Positions 4,622-43,000 of a DNA stretch of 64,000 nt are shown piece after piece. The DNA comes from Buxus sempervirens (taxonomy: Eukaryota; Streptophyta; Magnoliopsida; Buxales; Buxaceae). Position 1 is the first letter of the stretch. The number at the start of each line of letters is the position of its first letter. The notes under the pieces are model-generated. The model was not told the DNA's origin and did no database searches. It saw nothing but the letters and a program-made list of their open reading frames with translations. The stretch covers positions 14,006,858-14,070,857 of the forward strand of contig OX387190.1 of assembly GCA_947561395.2 (NCBI GenBank), written 5' to 3'. The position numbers were made by a program, and so were the translations under genes.

Positions 4622-4890
4622 TAGGGTTGCTTATTGGGCTGGGTTGGCACGAGCACGGCACGGTCTAGCACGCTTAAAGCGTGCCCATGCCTGGCATGGC
4701 CCACAATTGGCCCGGCACGGCCTAGAACCTATTAGCAGGCCGTGTCGTGCCTGGGGTATCAGGCATTGGGCCCGTTAAGGCACGGCCCACCAGGCACGAT
4801 GGCCCGGCGGGCTGTGCCCCGCGAAGCATGGGGGCGGCATGGCACGCTTTAAGCGTGTAATATTGTGCCATCCCGCGTGCTGGCCTGCAA
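4622..4890 (+). repeat. GC-rich subterminal repeat region of the hAT element
   Basis: Dense, imperfect GGCACGG, GCCCGGC and inverted copies (for example CACGCTTTAAGCGTG at 4844-4858, itself a palindrome). hAT transposases are known to bind subterminal repeats. Similar blocks occur at 28380-28560, 29030-29211 and 29965-30103 in this window, all in hAT derivatives. Confidence 0.7.
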
Positions 4891-5477
4891 GCTTGTATTA
4901 AAAAAAAGGGGGTTTTTTGCCTTTTGTGGGTTTTTTTACAATTTTGGAGAAAATTGTATTCTAATATATGTAATGTATGTGTGTGAATCATAAATATATT
5001 TTTTTGAAATTTTTGTATTTTTATTTATTTTTTTCCTTAGTGCTAAGGGCTCTCTGTCTCTCTCTTGTATGAAGGCCCTCTCTAGTCAAGCATTTAATGA
5101 ACATTGTAAGGATCAAGTAACCCTCAAGCACATGGTATAAGAGAGACTTTTTTATGCTAATAGCCTCACGTGTGGCTTCTCTATGCTATTGGACTAGCAT
5201 CTAGTGCTCTAGAATGTGTCTAACCTTAACAAATAAGAGACGTTTTGTCTCCTACAAAACAAAAAGAAAGTTCTCTTTGCCGCCATTTTTCATGTAATAG
5301 ATGTTCAGGCTTCTACAATTTGTTTTTTGGGAGTTGAGAAAAGGGCAGACTAAGAAGGAAGGTGTAGATACAAGTCACACAACAGTTGTTGAACTTTCTC
5401 TAATTCTACTGGAGTGAAGAGGACAACATTTCTTGAGTTGAAGAGATCTTTCTACAACAAATAACTTCTTTCAACAG

Positions 5478-5948
5478 GTAAGTGAATATATATTTGTTTT
5501 TTGAGAGATCTTTCTACACGTTATGAACACATGGGAAACTCTAGATAATCATGGGTCTTGTAGAATCCATCAGATCTTGATGGCAACAAACTGAGATGGT
5601 GTGAGGTGGTCTTGTTTTGCCCATAAATCCATGGTTGACTGCTATATTGTCAGTAGTTTCATCTTGGGTTGTGTAGGCTTTAAGTAAACCCAAGATGTAG
5701 TAATCTATTGACTTTTTGGATGCAGGTTCTTCTTTGTTCTTCACTTTTTTCATTTTTAAAATTCTTTTGAGGTCAATCATGTTTTTTACTTTCTGCCGAA
5801 TATAAATCTTGGTAATGAATTCTAGTTTTAAATATTCTCCTTTGTCTATACTTGTATGTCAGTACATCTACATCTATAAACTTTAAACCTTCAAGTTCTT
5901 CATTTTTCTTCATTCATATTTATTTATTCAATTTTGCATGTACTCTAG
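5478..5948 (+). other. Predicted 5' UTR intron of the hAT transposase gene
   Basis: A canonical donor CAG|GTAAGTG lies at 5475-5482 and an acceptor CTCTAG ends at 5948, two bases before the ATG at 5951. The small hAT unit at 29.5-30.1 kb has a comparable GAG|GTAAGT donor after its leader exon, which supports the reading. No transcript evidence is available. Confidence 0.45.
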
Positions 5949-5950
5949 AT

Positions 5951-7995
5951 ATGTCTTCTTCCACCACACAACAAGAAAGGAAAGAAAAAACAATTCAACG
6001 GCCTCTAAAACCTCAAGGATATGCATTTGATGACAAACCATTGTGAAATCATGTTAAAGTTCTTAGTATTCCTAAGGGTGGTGGTGGAAACAGATACTGG
6101 TCATGCAATTACTGCAACAAGAAAGTGATTGGATCATGCTCAAAAGTCAAAGGCCATCTGTTAAAGATCCCTAACCATGGTGTTGAAGGTTGCAAAGGAA
6201 TAAAGGATGATATTCATGAAGCAATCAAAAAAGAATATGAAACTGCTGAACAAATGAAAGCTGTAGATGCATTGAATGCCAGGAGAAGGGCTGAATATGT
6301 TTCAATTCCTGAAGGATCGGATTTACTACAATCCAAAAAAAGGAAAGGAGCAGCTCCGGGACCATTAGAAAGAACTTTTGAAGTGGCAACAAGAGATATT
6401 GTGGATAAGCTTACAGCTCATATGTTTTATGAAAGTGCATTGCCTTTCAATTTTGCAAGGTCTCCCTATTTTCGCGAGTATTCGATGATACTAACCAATG
6501 GTAAGATAGCAAGTTACACTCCTTATGATAGGCTACGCACAACATTACTTGCACAAGAGAAAGCACATATTGATAGGAAACTCCAACCAATAAGAGATTT
6601 GTGGAAAAAGAAGGGGATTTCCATTATTTCAAATGGGTGGACAGATATTCAACGTCTGCCTCTTATAAACATAATGGCTGCATCTGTAGGAGGAACAATG
6701 TTTTTAAAGTCAATTGATACAAGTGGCAAGGTGAAGGATGGAGAATATGTAGCTAATTTATTTTTGAAAGTGATTAACAAAGTTGGTGAAAAGAATGTTG
6801 TTCAAATCATCACAAACAATGCATCAAACTACAAGGCTGCTGGGATGATAAATGAAAGCAAGCACCCTCATATTTTTGACATCATGTGTTGTGCATAGCT
6901 TGAACTTGGCATTAAAGAACATTTGTGAGCCAACAGAAAAGTCTCCTCACTTCTCTCAATGTAAGCGGATTGTAGACTGGGTCAATGATACACGTAACGT
7001 CCGCACTTTTGTTGTCAATCATAGCATGGCTTTATTTAACTTCAAAAGTTACTCTGAATTGAGTTTGTTAAGGGTAGCAAATACAAGATTTGCATCAAGT
7101 ATTATCATGCTTAAGCGTCTAAAGGAAGTAAAGCATGCACTGGAGATGATGGTGAGGGATTCTGAGTGGAGGATTTATAGAGGGGATGGTAATACTCCAG
7201 TTGAAAGTAAAGCTAGAGAAGTTAAACAATGCATTGTTGATGATAGTTGGTAGGATAATTTAAATTATTTGCTGAAGTTTACAAAGCCTCTTATTGACAT
7301 GCTACGAGCAGTAGATACAAACGGTCCAATATTACACTCGGTTTATGATATGTGGGACACCATGATCGAAGATGTTATGGTGATAATACTTGGGCATGAA
7401 GGAAAGGATACAAATACAGGTCAATCTGAATTTTTTGATGTTATTCATGCAATTTTAGAGAGTAGATGGAATAAAAGCAACACCCCTCTACATTGTGTGG
7501 CCCATTCACTAGTGCCCAAGTATTATAGTGATGCTTGGGTTCGAGGTGGTAACAATGGTATTCCACATTTGTTACCACATGAAGATCAAGAAGTCTCTAT
7601 GAATAGAAGTAAATTTTTTAAAAGGATATATCCAGATCAAAATGATCTTAGAAGGGTCTATGCAGAATATGGAGCATTTTCTAGTGGATCAAATTACTTT
7701 AGCCAATCTCATGTGATTGAAGCTAGAACATATGAAGAACCTATAAGTTGGTGGGCAAATCATGGTGCTTCAACACCATTGTTGCAAGCTTTGGCTTTCA
7801 AGTTACTAGTGCAACCGGCATCATCTTCTTGTTGTAAGAGATATTGGAGTACATATTCATCGATTCAAGATATGAAAAGAAACAAGTTAGCAACAAGTAG
7901 AGCTGCAGACTTAGTGTTTGTCCATTGCAATCTTCGCCTAATGTCAAGGAAGAAGAAACAATATAAAGAAGGGGCAACAAAATTTTGGGATCTAT
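5951..7995 (+). pseudogene. hAT transposase, main exon (broken)
   Basis: The reading starts at ATG 5951 (MSSSTTQQERKEK). A BED-type zinc finger follows (WSCNYCNKKV at about 6100, with the downstream H and C residues). The DUF659/RNase-H-like core is near 6600-6850 (SNGWTD, then TNNASNYKAAG). The C-terminal hAT dimerisation region is near 7740-7960 (WWANHG, then KRYWSTYSSI and KLATSRAADLVF). Relatives usually have SDGW and TDNAS at the two core motifs, so both expected catalytic aspartates are asparagine here, each explained by one G-to-A change. There are also nonsense codons at about 6045 (TGA for an expected Trp) and 7251 (TAG for Trp), and a frame change near 6870. The gene is dead, but similarity is continuous along the whole protein, so decay is moderate rather than ancient. 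Confidence 0.85.
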
Positions 7996-8091
7996 GTAAG
8001 TTATGCATTACACATAAGGTTCTTTCCAAATAAATTTTATACTAATTATTGCAATCTTTAGCTAAATAAAATTTTCCTTTTGTATGGCTAG

Positions 8092-10599: not shown

Positions 10600-13500
10600 C
10601 CTGAATTGTGAAATTAGTAAAGTTTTGAGGTAATTAGGTAATATTTAAAAATAAGAATAAATAATAGGATGAAAATAAATTAGAAGTTAAAGATTAAGTG
10701 AAATTCTAATCCTAGTTAGATTAAGGAAAGTCTAGTAAAATTATAATCCTAGTAGAAAATCTAATTACTAATTGTAGTAGAAAACCCTAAGGCCCCATTA
10801 TAAATACAAAGCTAGGGATTATTTTTAAGAATTTTAGCCTATCAATGGAAATCTGAATGTAAAGAGAAAGCCTAAGTGTTTGGACATGGAAAAGAAGAAG
10901 AAGAAGAAATAGTGGGTTAGAGAGAGAAAAAAAGGACTCAAGCTATAGAAAATTCCTGTCCAGATTTAATCAAAACGTGATTTGGATAGATTCCACCGTT
11001 GGATCAAGCTGAAATTTTGTGGAGATATGCTTGACATCTAGTTTTTTAATTTGAACTTTAAAGATTTTGTTTGGAGCTGTCTAGCTTAGTCCGAATTTGG
11101 CTAAAACGTGACTACACCTATCGTTCAAACAGAAAGGGGTTTTTAGCGGTCAAAGGTAGGTTAATCTACAATTTTCCAGTTGTCTGTAGAACCCTAACTA
11201 ACGAATTTATGCCTAAAACTATTTTTGAAAAATTCTAAAAACATGAGATGATGTGGAATCCATGATATACCTTGTGAAAGTATTGGTTGTTTGCATACCT
11301 ACTTAGATTTCATGAAATTTAGCATGTTAGATGTGATATTTAAATTCAGATCGTAAAATCATGTTTTTATTCATGGGTTTTGCTCTTAACATGTCTAGAA
11401 GCATGCTACTAAGTTGATTTGTATGATTGCTTGCGCGTTTGATTGAAACCATGAAAATTGAGTATGAAATGGAAACTTAGAACCTTAGGATTTCAATGGG
11501 AAGATGGTCAAATCTTAATCGGGGTGAAATTAGTATGTTTGGATAGTTAGGAAATCATTATTGGATGCTTAGAAATGTTAGAATCATTGGATGTGGAGAA
11601 AATCAAGATGGAAAGTTAAAATCATGAAAATTGGATTTTATCGGGCGGATGCTTGATGTAGCGCTCGAGCTCCATGTTAGGCAATTTGTTTTACTCTAAG
11701 GCCGCTCGAGCGGCAGGTCGAGTGACCAACCCAGATTTGTGATTATGTGTATTTTTGCATAATTTGTATAATTTTACTGACATCTATGCCTTGATACATG
11801 TCTAAATACATGATTATGAGCTTTTAAATCGATTCTGAATCATTGATATTTGTCCATTTAGATATTGACATGTTTATTGAAATTATTTGATATAGTTGTT
11901 GATGAAAATCATGTGTGACTTGCATTATGCATTAGAGAGGATTTATTGTATTTCTTGCACGTGTCCAGCATGAAATTGACATTATCATTGGAATGGGTGA
12001 GATGTGAAGGTTTACCAACAGTCACCAATAATCTTTGTTCATATATTTATTTCCTTACGTGTCGTAGTGAGGACTATCCATGGAGTCAAAGACCTAGCAT
12101 GTAAGATGTGGCTACCAAGTAATGTGAGACCTTGAAGGGTAAATCTCTGAAAGGCATTAATAGGTTGAGATCGTATTATTGTTTAGAGCCAGACGGCACA
12201 AAGATATTGGATTAGGTCTCCATTCCACAAATAGTGGTTCGGTATAGTGCTCTGATCGGTTGAAAGCCCGTAGAACTACGATGTACACGTGGAATACTTT
12301 AGATTGCCCCGAATGGTGTCTGTAAGTTAGGACATGTGTCGGATCTGAGGTATCTAAACAATCTCACAAACCCAGCTATTATAAGGGAGCCAGGGGGAAG
12401 TTCCTTATAATTTGCAACTTTAAGATACTTCGTGATGTGAAAACGAATGTCTTCAAAGGTTATTTGCACACTTTCACCAATAAAAGAAATTATAAGGGGG
12501 TCGGTGGGGATGGCTCTTATAATCTGCAACTCTAAGATACTTTGTAATGTGAAGACGAATATCTCTAAAGGTTATAAACACATATGGTTGGTTGATCTTG
12601 ACTTTGTGTATTTTGGAGTGTTTCTTTCATATAGAGTTTTCTTAGGGATTCATACGTATAGACCTCATATAGAAGTATTAGGAAACATGATATACAACTA
12701 GATAAATAAGCAATTAAACAAGTAGAATTATCACATATGCAATGCGAGTATATAAACAAGTAAATTACAATCATATGTGTTTATAACCTCTAGAGATATT
12801 CGTCTTCACATTACAAAGTAAATTAGAGTTGTAGATTATAAGAGCCATCCCCACCGGCCCCCTTATAATTGCTTTTGTTTGTGAAAGTGTGCGAATAACC
12901 TCTAAAGACATTCGTCTTCACATCATGAAGTATCTTAAAGTTACAAATTATAAGGAACTTCCCTCCCTGCTCCTTTATAATTGTTGCGTTTGTGAGATTG
13001 TTTAGATACCTCAGATCCGACACACATCCTAACTTACAGACACCATTCAGGGCAATCTAAAGTATTCCACGTGTACAACGTAGTTTTACGGGCTTTCAAC
13101 CGATCGGAGCACTATACCGAACCACTATTTGTGGAATGGAGACCTAATCCAATATCTTTGTGCCATCCGGTTCTAAACAATAACACGATCTCAACCTATT
13201 AATGCCTTTCAGAGATTTACCCTTCAAGGTCTCACATCACTTGGTAGCCACATCTTACATGCTAGGTCTTTGACTCCATGGATGGTCCTCACTATGACAC
13301 GTAAGGAAATAAAAATACGAACAAGGATTATTGGTAAACCTTCACACCTCACCCATTCCAATGATAATGTCAATTTCATGCTGGACACGTGCAAGAAATA
13401 CAATAAATCCTGTCTAATGCATAATGCAATTCACACATGATTTTCATCAACAACTATATCAAATAATTTCAATAAACATGTCAATATCTAAATGGACAAA

Positions 13501-14757
13501 TATCAATGATTCAGAATCGATTTAAAAGCTCATAATCATGTATTTAGACATGTATCAAGGCATAGATGTCAGTAAAATTATACAAATTATGCAAAAATAC
13601 ACATAATCACAAATCTGGATTGGTCACTCGACCTGCCGCTCGAGCGGCCTTAGAGTAAAACAAAGTGCCTAACATGGAGCTCGAGCGCTACATCAAGCAT
13701 CCGCCCGATAAAATCCAATTTTCATGATTTTAACTTTCCATCTTGATTTTCTCCACATCCAATGATTCTAACATTTCTAAGCATCCAATAATTATTTCCT
13801 AACTATCCAAACATACTAATTTCACCTCGATTAAGATTTGACCATCTTCTCATTGAAATCCTAAGGTTCTAAGTTTCCATTTCATACTCAATTTTCACGG
13901 TTTCAATCAAACGCGCAAGCAATCATACAAATCAACTTAGTAGCATGCTTCTAAACATGTTAAGAGCAAAACCCATGAATAAAAACATGATTTTACGATC
14001 TGAATTTAAATATCACATCTAACATGCTAAATTTCATGAAATCTAAGTAGGTATGCAAACAACCAATACTTTCACAAGGCATATCATGGATTTCACATCA
14101 TCGCATGTTTCTAGAATTTTTCAAAAATATTTTTAGGCATAAATTCTTTAATTAGGGTTCATAGACAACTAGAAAATTGTAGATCAACCTACCTTTGACC
14201 GCTAAAAACCCCTTTCTGTTTGAACGATAGGTGCCGTCACGTTTTAGCCAAATTCGAACTAAGCTAGACAACTCCAAACGAAATCTCTACCGTTCAGATT
14301 GAAGAACTAGATGTCACGTATATCTCCACAAAATTTCAGCTCGATCCAACGGTGGAATCTCTCCAAATCGCATTTTAATTAAATCTAGACAAGAATTTTC
14401 TGCAGCACTTTTCTTCTTTCTTGAGTCCTTTTTTTCTCTCTAGCCCACTATTTCTCCTTCTTCTCCATGTCCAAACTCCTAGGGTTTCTCTCCACATTCA
14501 GATCTCCATTGATAGGCTAAAAGTCTTAAAAATAATCCTTAGCTTTCTATTTATAATGGGGTCTTAGGGTTTCCTACTCCAATTAGGAATTATTTTTTCT
14601 ACTAGGATTATAATCTTACTCGACTTCCTTAATCTAACTAGGATTTGAATTTCACTTGATCTTTAACTTCTAATTTAATTTATTTTCGTCATATTATTTA
14701 TTCCTATTTTTATATTTATCTAATCACCCCAAAACTTTACTAATTTCACAATTTAGG
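10600..14757. repeat. 4.16-kb imperfect palindrome (two inverted LTR-derived arms)
   Basis: The left arm 10600-12586 and right arm 12772-14757 are reverse complements over nearly 2 kb each, around a 185-bp spacer (12587-12771) with the centre at about 12679. By eye, blocks range from about 1% divergence (11270-11400 against 13960-14090) to about 8% near the centre. The left arm reads as the plus-sense strand of a Tekay-like LTR: a TATAAATA at 10799-10806, a GCTCGAGCGGC block near 11700, and the usual 3' portion. Sequence beyond each arm differs. The right arm goes on to a TGTAATATCC LTR start at 14961. Confidence 0.92.
12379..12586 (+). repeat. Two-copy tandem repeat (about 111-bp unit) at the inner end of the palindrome arm
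   Basis: TTATAAGGG... at 12379 and again at 12490 begin two units that share the CTTATAAT, AAGATACTT and GTGA(A)GACGAAT words. The mirror copy is at 12772-12980 in the right arm, so the duplication predates the inverted duplication. Confidence 0.7.
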
Positions 14758-28371: not shown

Positions 28372-29212
28372 TAGCTTATCGGCCGGGCCAGCACGGGCAC
28401 CGCCCAGCCCGCTTTAAACATGCCCAGGCCGGCACGACACGGCCTAGGGATGGCCCGGGCACGCCACGGCACAGTGGTCGTGCCGTGCCGGGCCTAGGGC
28501 CCGTTTGGGCACGCCCGCGTGCCCAAACGCTGGGCACGCTCCAATGGCAGGCCCACGTGCCAGCAAGCCCAATTAGTTTAAATAACCCAAAAATTGTTGA
28601 TAACAAGATTTGAACCTTGTCCAACAGGCTGAAAACCTATCTCTTTAACCACTAGAACAGATTGACTTCTTACAACAATAATATCATAATTAAAATAGTT
28701 TACCTAAAAATTAAGGATTTCCATGATTGTTGAAACTCTTATATAATCATTTAAAGCTAAGAAAATAACTAAGTATAAATAAGCCGAAAAAACTGTTATA
28801 AAATCTCTAATTAAATATATTTGTTAAATCCATGGTTTTTAATTAGACTACTTTAAGTCTTTAATGGGTGTAATTTATATTTTTTTTTGAGCAAAATCTA
28901 TCTAAATATGTGTAAAACAATTTTGTGAATAATAAAAATATTTTTCAGAATTTTTTAATGATTTTTTTGGATTTTTTGGTGATTTTTTTGAATTTTTTCT
29001 TTATTTTTTTTTAAAAAATCAAGTTTAATACCTGGCCCGCCAGGCCCGGCAGCGGCCCGCCGGCCCGGCGGGCTAGGCCCGGCACGGCACGCCTGCTGGG
29101 GCGTGCCGTGCCGGGCTGGGGTTTTGGGCAAATGGGCCTGGCGTGCCGCGGCCCGCCCGAGCACGCCTGAGGCGTGCCGGGCCGTGCCGGGCCGGCCCGC
29201 CGCGCATGCCTA
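28372..29212. mobile_element. Non-autonomous hAT element (about 840 bp)
   Basis: It has GC-rich ends of GGCCCG/GGCACG words (28380-28560 and 29030-29211) around an AT-rich middle. The ends read TAGCTTATCGGCCGGGCC at left and, inverted, TTAGGCATGCGCGGCGGGCC at right, which is an imperfect TIR pair. I could not match an 8-bp target-site duplication, so the boundaries are tentative. There is no transposase. Confidence 0.55.
28598..28672 (-). other. tRNA-like sequence inside the hAT derivative
   Basis: The minus strand reads CTAGTGGTTAAAG (D-arm/box A like), a 5-bp stem ATAGG/CCTGT closing a 7-base loop TTTTCAG, then CAAGGTTCAAATCTTG (T-arm/box B like). The loop would present TTC, a Glu anticodon. 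The acceptor stem does not pair and the T loop has the wrong size, so this is a decayed tRNA or SINE head rather than a working gene. Confidence 0.4.
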
Positions 29213-29470
29213 ACAAGGCCTATGGCCTAGTCGTGCCATGCCAGTCCAAAGGCAGACACCCGTTGGACCGGCCCACTAGGCACAAAAACGGCTAGCCGTT
29301 TTTTACCCCCCAAAAAAGTGTTAAAAGTAAATTTTTTTACAATTTACCCCCCAACAGCCATATTAAGCGGTATACTTGTAATTGACTGTAAATGATCATT
29401 TCTACCCTTTCAACAACAAATAACAGTCATATTTGAGGGTAAAGGTGATAAAAAACTATTTTTGATTTTC

Positions 29471-29478
29471 TATAAATA
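29471..29478 (+). promoter_or_regulatory. TATA box (TATAAATA) ahead of the foldbacks
   Basis: TATAAATA followed by a CT-rich start region; transcription would begin near 29500, about 40 bases before the first foldback. Confidence 0.6.
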
Positions 29479-29537
29479 GGCCTAACCCTTCCCATTCCAA
29501 ACTACACCTCTTCTCATCTCTTCTCTTCTCTTCTTAT

Positions 29538-29650
29538 TTTCTTAGAGTCTTGTTTAAAGATTTGGCAAATGGCCGGCAGCAGACTTGGCAGAGTTCTCAC
29601 ATGGGCCCTAGGCCGACCATTGACAAATCTTTAAACAAGACTCTAAGAAA
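29538..29650 (+). ncRNA. Foldback 1, miRNA-precursor-like (113 nt)
   Basis: Arm 29538-29577 pairs with arm 29612-29650. The first 27 bases are perfectly complementary (core AGAGTCTTGTTTAAAGATTT), then pairing continues with few mismatches to about 38 bp. The loop is 34 nt. The size and pairing fit a plant pre-miRNA, but processing is unproven. Confidence 0.6.
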
Positions 29651-29684
29651 GTGATAAAAAATTTTTTGTTTCCTTCATTTTCTT

Positions 29685-29779
29685 CGTAGAGTTATGTTTA
29701 GTGATTTTCTAATGGCTGGCAAAGTCACAGTGCTCCTTGAGCCCGTCCATTAGCAAATCACTGAACAAGACTCTTCACG
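29685..29779 (+). ncRNA. Foldback 2, diverged duplicate of foldback 1
   Basis: Arm 29685-29720 pairs with arm 29741-29779 with about six mismatches and a small bulge; the loop is 20 nt. The arm sequence (AGAGTTATGTTTAGTGATTT) is recognisably related to foldback 1, so the two arose by duplication. Confidence 0.55.
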
Positions 29780-29788
29780 TCTAAATGA

Positions 29789-29868
29789 GAGTTGCAAAAG
29801 TGTTACTTGCATCGATTGCTGCTTGGACAGTCAAGCGGTAATAGATGCAAGTAATACTTTTGCAACTC
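29789..29868 (+). ncRNA. Foldback 3, near-perfect hairpin (80 nt)
   Basis: Arm 29789-29825 pairs with arm 29832-29868 around a 6-nt loop (GACAGT). The outer 25 bp have a single difference, equivalent to a G-U pair, and the inner 12 bp have three or four. It is not obviously related to foldbacks 1 and 2. Confidence 0.6.
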
Positions 29869-29891
29869 CTTATCTCAGTACGATTCAAGAG

Positions 29892-29957
29892 GTAAGTAAC
29901 TTTTTTTTACTATTTTTTCTATTTTCTCTCTCTTTTTTTCTTTTTTTTTTTGTGCAG
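29892..29957 (+). other. Predicted 66-bp GT-AG intron after the foldbacks
   Basis: Donor GAG|GTAAGTAAC at 29889-29900, a T-rich tract, and acceptor TTTTTGTGCAG ending at 29957. It is comparable with the leader intron of the hAT gene at 5478. Confidence 0.5.
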
Positions 29958-30103
29958 AAAACTACCCCGAGCCCGACACGACCCAGCCCTAGCCATGCTA
30001 TGGGCTGGGCCGTGCCTGGGTTTTCCTTGACGAGCCAGGCACAGCACGACCCATCAAGGATGCGGGCCATGCCCATGTCGGGCCAGCCCGTTAAGCAACC
30101 CTA

Positions 30104-30532
30104 GGTGCCTATACACTCTAGTGCATAAAAAAAAAGGTTAGGACGTGTAAGGATAAGAAATTGCTAAAGAACATCTTTTGGAAAGTGAAAAATGAAAAAT
30201 AAGAAAGTTATGAAAATTACACTTAGACCCCCCCTAAGGTTTAACTCGCCAACACTTAGACCCCTTAGTTTTAAAAGCGATCACTAACACCCCTTTAGGT
30301 TCTAAAATTGTACACATAACCCCCTTGTCGTTATCTCCCACGTGATGACATTAGTATATGAATGTTAAATGACAAAACTACCCTTCTTTCTCCTTTCGAT
30401 GAAAGAGTTGGGTTTCCAAAGACTTCCATCCCATTAGATGATACGTACTTGGCCATTTGATATTGATTTTTTCTCCAAATCAAATGAGAAAAGCTGGGTT
30501 TTCATATATGTTTACTCTTGATTTTTCCTCTT
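30104..30532. other. Unassigned flank with repeated CCCCTTAG words
   Basis: CTTAGACCCCCCCTAAGGTT-like words recur three times between 30222 and 30330 (acccccttag/acacccctttagg). This is suggestive of a repeat end, but no element could be defined. Its continuation after the solo LTR is 33754-33821. Confidence 0.4.
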
Positions 30533-40003: not shown

Positions 40004-43000
40004 TGTAAAACCCCAAATTTTCAGTAAATAAATAAATAAAATTTAATACAGATATTTGGAGTGTCAATGAATTTGTCAAAATAAATTGGGGATTTAATAT
40101 AAAGGAATGATTTCGGGTACTTATAATTCGTTCGGGATGTATAACGGACTAATAATGACAAAGAGAATAAACTTGGAAATTTCGGAAGAAATTGAATGGG
40201 TAGATGTGAAAATATTAAGAGAAGGGTATTTTGGTCAATTCACATTAATTATCGGTAAATAATTAAATACATTAATTAAAATTGTTATTAGACTTGAGAA
40301 ATAATAATAGATTTAAGTTGTCGTTTAAATTGTTTATTAACAATGATATTTAAAGCTTAGTAATTAGAATAATGGCATACTGGTAATTATGTTTGATTTG
40401 AAGCCTGAAGTCGAGGAGATGAGAATTTTATTAAAGGATATTAATTATAATTATAGATGATCACACGGATAGAGAAGATCCGAAGTTTGGCGCAGATCTG
40501 ACCGATGGATGGTGAGATATCGAGGTGAGGGTGGATTAAAGGTCCTTATTAAATCTGATTGGTGGATAAGTAACGAACCCGACAGTAGTGCGATACGTGG
40601 GATCAGAGGAGAATAAAATAGGGTTTTTATATTTATTTGGGGTTGATCGTAAGGGAGTTTTAGTTTTTGGGTTCTGGCGGCTGAAGAGAGAAAAACGAAC
40701 AAAAGAGAGAGAGAGAGATCGAGAGGATAAGAAGAAGAAGGAAGGAGAGAACGTATCTCTGGTTTCTCATCATTCCTAGAGTGTCTCTTGCCTGTGAAGA
40801 GGAGAGGAAGTCGCTGGTTGGAAGAAGAAAGGATCTTGAGTGAACAGAGGTAGGTAGCACCGTTTACTCGTTCGTTTTGGTTTCCAGCGGTTTATTCGAT
40901 TCGAGTTGCATGATCTTTTATGTTGTAAATATACGAATATTGTCTGATATTAATTTTATATGAATGTTAGAAGCGATTAGAACACAAAAATATGATTTTT
41001 AGAAACTCCGTTCGTCGTTTTGGTTAAAGCGCCGACCGTGCCTGCACTTGGTGCTCCTCAGCGCTATTCGGCGTTAGTTGAAATATTTAGAGCGCCCGTG
41101 ATTGCCGACTAATAGTCGCTCGGCGCTCGCTATATTTAAAACGAAACGCGTTATCGCCGATGAGTGCCGCCCTACTGAGCGACCGTAGGCGATCAATCTA
41201 AAACACAAAATTAACGCTTGTAATGATTACAAGCCTAAACTCCAAATATTTCTATATACTCTAATGAATTAAAACCCAAACTTAAATATTTCCATCTTAC
41301 TTTATTGAATTAAACTAAACCCTAAATACTTTCATATGCCTTTTTGACCCTCACCAAACTTTAAATAACTTGAAAAACTTAACCTAAACCTAATTAGATT
41401 GTATACGTAATCTACTCTTCTACGAAATCTAAAGTGTAATAACTTTTGATAAATTAACCAAATCTTAATTAAGTCCTAATGCTTTGAAACGACCCAAATA
41501 TATATTATTAAACAATTAAAATTTTATATTAATGTAATTTATACATTATTATAACCGCACTCTAGCGTACATGATATGCGTCCAATTTCTGGTGTAATTA
41601 AATGTCTGTCTAACACTAAATCAGGATGTCACGCTAAACTTATTTAAATGTACTGAACAAAATATTATAATTAATAACTGAGAAACTGTTTAGAACCAGA
41701 CTTTGAATTATCAACTAAACATGAACCTAATATGCTATAAATAATAATGGAAATGAGAATTATTTGTGCATTGGCTTGGTGGCTAGTTTTATTGATAACC
41801 TGCTTGGTGGCAGAGATGTATTGTATATTACCTGCTTGGTGGCAGAGATTATAACCTGCTTGGTGGCAGAGATAACCCGCTTGGTGGCGGAGACCCTAAC
41901 CCGCTTGGTGGCGGAGACCCTACCTGCTTGGTGGCAGAGATTACCCGCTTGGTGGCGGAGACCCTAACTCGTTTGGTGACGGAGACCCAACCTGCTTGGT
42001 GGCAGAGATAACCCGTTTGGTGACGGAGACCCTAACCTGCTTGGTGGCGGAGACCCTAACCCGCTTGGTGGCGGAGACCCTAACCCGCTTGGTGGCGGAG
42101 ATACCCGCTTGGTGGCGGAGACATTACTCCTGCGGGAGAGATTCATTACCTCCCGTGGGGCAGATGTATTTCCGATGGATTGCATCCTACAAGAGAGGTA
42201 CCTCATGTGGGAGAGATGTGATTATGCGTGATTGCATCCCACATGGAGGATGGGTGTGTGAGTTACCACTGAAAGGTGAGGAAGCTATCTCCTAGGGTAG
42301 AGGTAGATGCTAGGTGTTCACATCCTGCGGTAGAGTTATACTGTCTCCTGCAGGGGGTACCTGTAGTCTTAGAGATGTGCATTCTCCTGCGGAGCTTGTG
42401 TGGATACTACGTGTTTGTGTTCTGTGGTAGAGATAGGCTACTACCTGAAGGTTGGCTTTTATTACTGATATGATGTTTGATTCTCAGGTTGATGGATTGT
42501 TTATTTAAAAAGGAAATATTGAAATGTCATAACTGAATAGAATTGCTATGAGTTAATGAGAACTGTTAAAATGGAATATTATGGAATCATGAATAAAATG
42601 TGGAACTACTCTTAAGAAGACACTAAAGAAAATAAACCAGGAACCATGGGAATGTGAAATATAATACATTGTCCTTTAAATTGAACGGAAATGCACAGGA
42701 TTAACTTCTTTTATTTCAGGCACTGATTACATGTTTGTTTTATATTGAGATTATTCGTTTATCTTATTGACCGTAATTAGTCGTCTATTTTACCGAGCAT
42801 GAAACCACTGTTATTTTATATATGCATAAACTGTTTCTTCATGCATGTGTTACCTACTGAGATATTCGTATCTCACCCCTACTTTATATTCTATTTTTCA
42901 GGTCATCTTGGAGAGGACGCCACGGGTTAGACAGATAGTGGGTTGAAGCCTAGAAATTCCATATGAAAAGAGTAGGATGATTTTATATAGTTGTATTTAT

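Follow-up and report, generated by a model that had tools for sequence, protein, structure and literature searches.

The window (the whole stretch of DNA that was analysed, 64,000 nucleotides) contains at 29471-29957 three genuine hairpins, far above chance expectation, and these hairpins are the common cargo of a repeat family of non-autonomous hAT elements, ~1 kb long and bounded by TAGGGTTGCTTA-type termini. The family is mobile, occurring as discrete hAT units with target duplications, and an excess of compensated changes in its source lineages pre-dates insertion. Family, layout, mobility, pairing and this excess are observed, and they form the basis of our leading, if tentative, explanation that the family is a putative mobile Pol II-type hairpin-RNA (MIRNA-like) gene spreading on hAT ends; transcription, dicing, a target in trans and a benefit to the element are the steps that we infer.

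Results

A unit of three hairpins behind a TATA box

The first-pass annotation had described a TATA-led unit of three consecutive foldbacks followed by a GT-AG intron and a hAT terminus, and this layout was recovered (Table 1). The folds of HP1 to HP3 were located behind the TATA box at 29471, and the GT-AG signals (donor GT at 29892, acceptor AG at 29956-29957) and a hAT terminus ending at 30103 are present. When 29471-29957 was folded, as that annotation had proposed, the MFE was -171.9 kcal/mol, compared with -99.1 +/- 6.0 kcal/mol for 100 dinucleotide shuffles (z -12). HP1 has an uninterrupted 25-bp stem (29540-29564/29624-29648) among its 42 pairs, and 30 consecutive pairs form when the whole stretch is folded. 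HP1 and HP2 are diverged tandem duplicates whose likeness extends to the loops; the claim that they still pair was borne out, with pairing kept through changes on both arms. The HP2 of the window copy is without the family's 1-nt bulge. HP3 forms a near-perfect stem with one G.A mismatch and a 4-nt loop in the MFE structure.

Table 1. Features of the hairpin unit and of the related hAT element in the window.
Feature	Position	Strand	Basis or remarks
hAT element with interrupted transposase frames	4622..8033	+	DUF659, hAT dimerisation domains
AT-rich segment	28860..29020	+	in fuller sister copies stands after the splice donor
GC-rich stretch, site of sister copies' 5' end	29030..29280	.	
Conserved promoter-proximal block of the element	29340..29470	+	column identity 0.86-0.94 (10-base steps, 40 copies)
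TATA box TATAAATA	29471..29478	+	exact in 70/84 copies; TATAWAW in 77/84
Hairpin 1 (HP1)	29540..29648	+	fold; 1-nt bulge in 5' arm
Hairpin 2 (HP2), tandem paralogue of HP1	29688..29774	+	33 pairs
Hairpin 3 (HP3), sequence unrelated to HP1/HP2	29789..29868	+	37 pairs
Candidate intron	29892..29957	+	donor GTAAGT, T-rich tract, AG
GC-rich 3' subterminal region	29958..30085	+	sequence, column identity
3' terminal inverted repeat GCCCGTTAAGCAACCCTA	30086..30103	.	hAT 3' terminus; sister copies with 8-bp target duplications

Conservation differs along the element. The GC-rich ends show a column identity of 0.54-0.75 across much of their length (40 copies), below that of the promoter-proximal block, and the conservation of the TATA box does not exceed that of random A/T columns (fraction 0.32; 84 copies). 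The donor GTAAGT is retained in 30 of the 40 copies of the 40-row alignment, and 15 of them have an AG where the window copy has its acceptor. The window copy, an old one, keeps only its 3' end, no 5' terminus having been found in 29030-29280. Because its AT-rich segment lies upstream of the unit, whereas in fuller copies it follows the donor, the window copy looks composite, and the arrangement suggests that two related elements are combined in it. A 116-aa open frame on the + strand (29754-30104) runs through HP3 and the candidate intron; it has no Pfam match and is probably due to chance.

The unit is the interior of a mobile repeat family

The genome searched comprises 676.5 Mb. A 21-mer from an HP3 arm has 394 + 382 = 776 matches in it with at most 3 mismatches, against 4 + 3 = 7 for the reversed control, and an HP2 arm 20-mer has 90 + 118 matches with at most 2 mismatches, against 1 + 0. 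The number of elements lies below the number of arm matches, a hairpin being able to match with each of its arms, and we estimate the family at some hundreds of elements. The 487-bp unit gave 978 first-look candidates; the 40 copies that were scored, window included, are 77-100% identical. In the aligned copies the order is TATA box, HP1, HP2, HP3 and splice donor, and the fold z is at most -3 in 37 (HP1), 33 (HP2) and 39 (HP3) of the 40 copies (30 shuffles each). Twenty further loci were taken from 100 listed perfect HP3-arm matches, excluding those in the 40-copy set. All 20 match the whole or nearly the whole of HP3. In 12 the match extends to HP1, HP2 and the promoter block; the other eight are incomplete or, upstream of HP3, too diverged. 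In one locus (L062) the HP2 match falls on HP1, its own HP2 being detected separately.

Both termini (of the TAGGGTTGCTTATCGGGC...GCCCGTTAAGCAACCCTA type) were found in 13 of 21 copies examined, 788-1066 bp apart. The 8-bp target duplications of these 13 copies are perfect in five, agree at 7 of 8 bases in five and are poorer in three. A tblastn search of 20 loci of 8-9 kb, with the transposase frames of the 4622 element as the only query, gave no match at 1e-3, and the unit interior is tentatively regarded as a candidate non-coding transcription unit, not as a recognisable transposase remnant. The first-pass view of a single MIRNA locus born in one relic is thus replaced by the shared interior of a many-copy family. 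Of the scenario that the annotation itself had set against its view, many copies with randomly left-over hairpins, one half holds, the copies being many; the hairpins are orderly.

Two subfamilies and rearranged copies

Two subfamilies differ around the donor. In type I, to which the window copy belongs, the donor junction reads ...CAAGAG followed by GTAAGTAA; in type II, of which 40 copies were scored from 1658 candidates, ...CACCAATAT is followed by GTAAGTATTG, and L065 and L066 carry an acceptor CTTTTCTCTTGCAG that matches this donor. The three hairpins are kept in both types, and the GTAAGT donor is present in several type II copies although the flanking sequence differs from that of type I. 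The loop and base of HP2 are longer in type II, and the type I HP2 looks like a shortened form.

Several copies are rearranged. L107 (G000 C4:1606600-1608700) has five consecutive HP1-type 5' arms at 614, 778, 933, 1087 and 1242, four of them spaced 154-155 bp, while of HP3 only the 3' tail is left, followed by a donor-like GAGGTAATTAAG, the AT segment, the GC-rich end and the terminus. In L053, positions 436-473 form a perfect 38-base palindrome composed of the HP2 3' arm and its own reverse complement, which looks as though one arm had served to rewrite the other. Downstream of HP3, inverted BLAST matches indicate that L057, L062 and L068 carry the 3' part of the type II intron in the opposite orientation to L066. 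L065 and L066 (G000 C9:34.80 and 35.00 Mb) are 96% alike, as is their downstream sequence (~96%), and the pair probably arose by segmental duplication. The same 250 kb hold three further type II copies.

Compensated changes pre-date insertion

Changes were reconstructed by parsimony on a tree of 84 copies (41 type I, 43 type II), 12 of 96 having been dropped as too short; the second copy of L018 belongs to the 40-row set and is absent from the 84-row alignment. The null re-pairs columns within the same pair type only, so that column rates are kept. On internal branches, 13 double compensations were counted against 2.28 expected; none of 3000 nulls reached 13, the highest being 10. The tips showed 39 against 28.3 (fraction 0.028). 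Single changes that keep the pair made up 51.9% on internal branches, compared with 46.6% in the null (0/1000), and 45.7% compared with 45.4% on the tips. As single changes on the tips look neutral, the compared copies seem to decay freely after insertion. The internal-branch change rate of hairpin columns is about that of promoter columns.

A second tree was built from unpaired columns only, with 83 copies (L065 was omitted as a near-duplicate of L066). It gave 16 internal doubles against 2.91 expected (0/3000; highest null 11), spread 4/6/6 over the three hairpins. Support for the trees is poor, with 7 of 80 internal nodes of this second one reaching 0.9 or more. Its tip doubles, 76 against 38.6 (also 0/3000), are higher than on the first tree, probably because shared changes are misplaced on the second tree. 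In a previous test, 40 copies yielded 5 internal doubles against 0.99 (fraction 0.0022) and 17 on the tips against 11.5 (0.068).

Counts on the 40 rows were less uniform. Cells changed on both sides number 66, against 44.8 +/- 5.4 in shuffles (0/500) and 18-34 when the pairing is slid; pairs with a change on both sides are only mildly raised (30 against 24.4; 14/500 shuffles as high). The paired cells amount to 91.5%, compared with 90.9% in shuffles, and mutual information with APC did not find the true pairs enriched (40 copies, p 0.34).

Under RNA-level selection, G-U should be better tolerated than A-C. On internal branches, GC>GU and GC>AC changes number 59 and 63 (84 copies) or 62 and 57 (second tree); on the tips they number 254 and 268 or 271 and 280, respectively. 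This strand-asymmetry test for RNA-level selection was negative. HP1 and HP2 share a 1-nt bulge in their 5' arms, present in 78 and 79 of 84 copies, respectively; the HP2 of the window copy is an exception.

Likeness to miRNA precursors

A foldback precursor with a long stem, a trait of plant MIRNA genes, is found in HP1, HP2 and HP3. Rfam gave no match at the gathering cut-off in the window. A search of 29400-29960 alone yielded ten sub-threshold matches, led by mir-548 on HP3 with 40.2 bits (cut-off 90, E 1.9e-6), and these are taken as a by-product of the near-perfect stems. With up to 3 mismatches allowed, no 21-mer of the consensus hairpins recurs in the rest of the window or in L047-L049. 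One HP1 variant has 59 genome matches; the 20 stretches read comprise 19 single matches and the L107 array, and the partner 3' arm was detected in 18 of the 19.

The changes in the arms were also read in codon phase. In the antisense frame of the HP1 and HP2 5' arms, which yields a peptide like PLAKSLN(K/M)TL, internal changes are mostly synonymous, more than those on the tips, and the HP3 3' arm shows the same pattern when read as QAVIDASNTFATP, and no less so in the reverse frame GVAKVLLASITA. The synonymous counts are 19/6 against 27/62 on the tips for the HP2 5' arm (Fisher 5e-5), 21/10 against 59/63 for the HP1 5' arm (0.04; sense frame 22/15 against 53/82, 0.02) and 24/21 against 47/135 for the HP3 3' arm (5e-4; reverse frame 25/19 against 45/129, 1e-4), in a test of 36 hairpin frames in which the reading was picked post hoc and repeated changes at a few columns inflate the counts. 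The pattern was not seen in the HP3 5' arm or the HP1/HP2 3' arms, and promoter frames showed no marked difference (internal 0.26-0.37, tips 0.25-0.31). By column permutation the 5' arms gave 0.0076 (HP1), 0.60 (HP2) and 0.037 (combined), and the others 0.14 (HP3 3'), 0.35 (HP3 5') and 0.76 (HP1 and HP2 3' arms). The codon-like pattern is therefore exploratory: suggestive by synonymous count and much weaker by column permutation. A PDB sequence search with two arm-frame peptides returned three designed proteins at E ~1 for one and none for the other. It seems unlikely to us that the hAT family carries a mobile miRNA cluster that co-evolved with protein-coding targets, perhaps a host silencing gene as in the case of miR820; that source-lineage changes prefer synonymous sites as if they tracked the codons of a target, a part of the same reading, is equally doubtful.

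Discussion

Explanations for the hairpin family

A mobile small-RNA gene is possible because a promoter-like region is combined with three hairpins whose arms changed together before the copies landed. RNA polymerase II would transcribe the unit rightward from the TATA box, and the transcript would fold into HP1-HP2-HP3. Dicer-like enzymes would cut the stems into 21-24-nt small RNAs, and the downstream splice donor would aid processing or the life of the transcript. A relative, for instance the 4622 element, would supply the transposase that moves the unit by its ends. The equal frequency of G-U and A-C intermediates keeps arm-templated repair a serious rival to RNA-level selection. If the hairpins were passenger inverted repeats with no RNA role, and if template switching or cruciform repair at replication or transposition copied one arm onto its partner, arm copying would yield compensated changes without selection; we hold this to be possible, if somewhat doubtful. 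Equal G-U and A-C intermediates are what arm-templated repair predicts, and the perfect palindrome from the HP2 arm in L053, the inverted intron parts in L057, L062 and L068 and the row of five HP1-type 5' arms in L107 point the same way. Frequent arm copying should nevertheless have erased the bulge in both paralogues, and the ordered TATA-hairpins-donor layout is left unexplained. A bulge common to both would be expected if the precursor shape were preserved, and would not be if arms were freely copied.

Stems that are long and near-perfect typically serve as siRNA substrates, and those of the family could be diced mainly to siRNAs that methylate the element's own family, with no miRNA or host target. 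This self-silencing would also agree with the reading of 20 stretches matched by an HP1 variant, none of which showed an isolated target site, and it has a precedent in MITE hairpin transcripts, described as 24-nt siRNA substrates in a review (PMC12595863). It gives the element no motive for pairing kept through changes on both arms, and the stems also bear fixed bulges; we consider it improbable. The order of TATA box, leader and donor, together with the terminus and AT segment common to the 4622 element, would suit a structured leader of a once autonomous element that controlled translation or splicing and was retained after internal deletion. This is very unlikely, given the lack of a transposase match to the 4622 frames in the 20 loci of 8-9 kb and of hairpins in the 2.8-2.9 kb upstream of three 4622-related transposases. 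That the hairpins are chance structures or leftovers of nested MITEs, for which the hAT- and repeat-rich surroundings might speak, is contradicted by the shuffle z of -12 and by the recurrence of all three hairpins, in unchanged order, throughout 40 aligned copies and most others read, and can hardly be entertained.

Relation to known systems

The closest precedent for the mobile hairpin-RNA gene is miR820, whose miRNA genes lie within rice CACTA elements and target OsDRM2; miR820 and its target site changed together with pairing kept (PMC3459959). The likeness consists in miRNA-type foldbacks, here candidate ones, inside a DNA transposon. Whereas miR820 sits in CACTA, the present family has hAT-type termini, 8-bp duplications and three hairpins per element. 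MITE-derived plant MIRNA genes resemble it as short non-autonomous DNA elements with many copies and foldback RNA (PMC3086885, PMC10004981, PMC12595863). Their foldback is described as the MITE's own inverted repeats or as two inverted neighbours (PMC3086885, PMC12595863); the foldbacks here, in contrast, are internal, apart from the termini and behind the element's TATA box. The MIR482-MIR1448 polycistron of Populus likewise has two homologous hairpins in one transcript and, unlike the present family, is not called mobile in the relevant part of its description (PMC3475693). The search of open-licence main texts yielded no mention of the hairpin-arm sequences, nor any hAT family described as carrying three hairpins internally, downstream of a TATA box of its own.

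Non-autonomous hAT elements of the nDart1 type are short, with GC-rich ends and a terminus similar to that of the family here. We know of no hairpin cluster or TATA unit in nDart1, and no description of nDart subterminal features was found in the open-licence literature. The nDart1 element of rice is listed as hAT (PMC12595863).

Should the mobile-gene explanation be true, cut-and-paste transposons can carry miRNA clusters about as complete genes, with promoter, several precursors and splice donor; the large copy family would be a natural record of miRNA-precursor evolution, and another transposon using small RNAs in trans would stand beside miR820. Short of confirmed small RNAs, the family is a hAT family that is unusual in having maintained its inverted repeats. 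If passenger repeats are the answer, it offers a clear data set on how arm-templated repair can mimic RNA covariation.

The 4622 element and other surroundings

The 5' terminus of the 4622 element, TAGGGTTGCTTATTGGGC, is the same as that of the hairpin family, and the two have the AT segment in common, so that this element is a possible mobilising relative. The first-pass annotation had noted no such foldbacks in its leader, and no copy of the hairpins was found in the element. They are equally absent from the 2.8-2.9 kb upstream of three related transposases (L047-L049), which are three of the seven other close transposase copies among the matches listed. The dehydrogenase gene that had been placed just downstream of the unit did not appear among 17 window ORFs, a subset of all ORFs, that were scanned with Pfam; the matches above cut-off in these were to hAT, retroelement-type and one endonuclease domain. 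The window also carries an inverted repeat (10600-12590 / 12768-14757) with 2-kb arms that are 92.6% identical and ~180 bp apart, far larger than HP1-HP3, and tandem repeats of ~135 bp with related shifts at 41796-42122.
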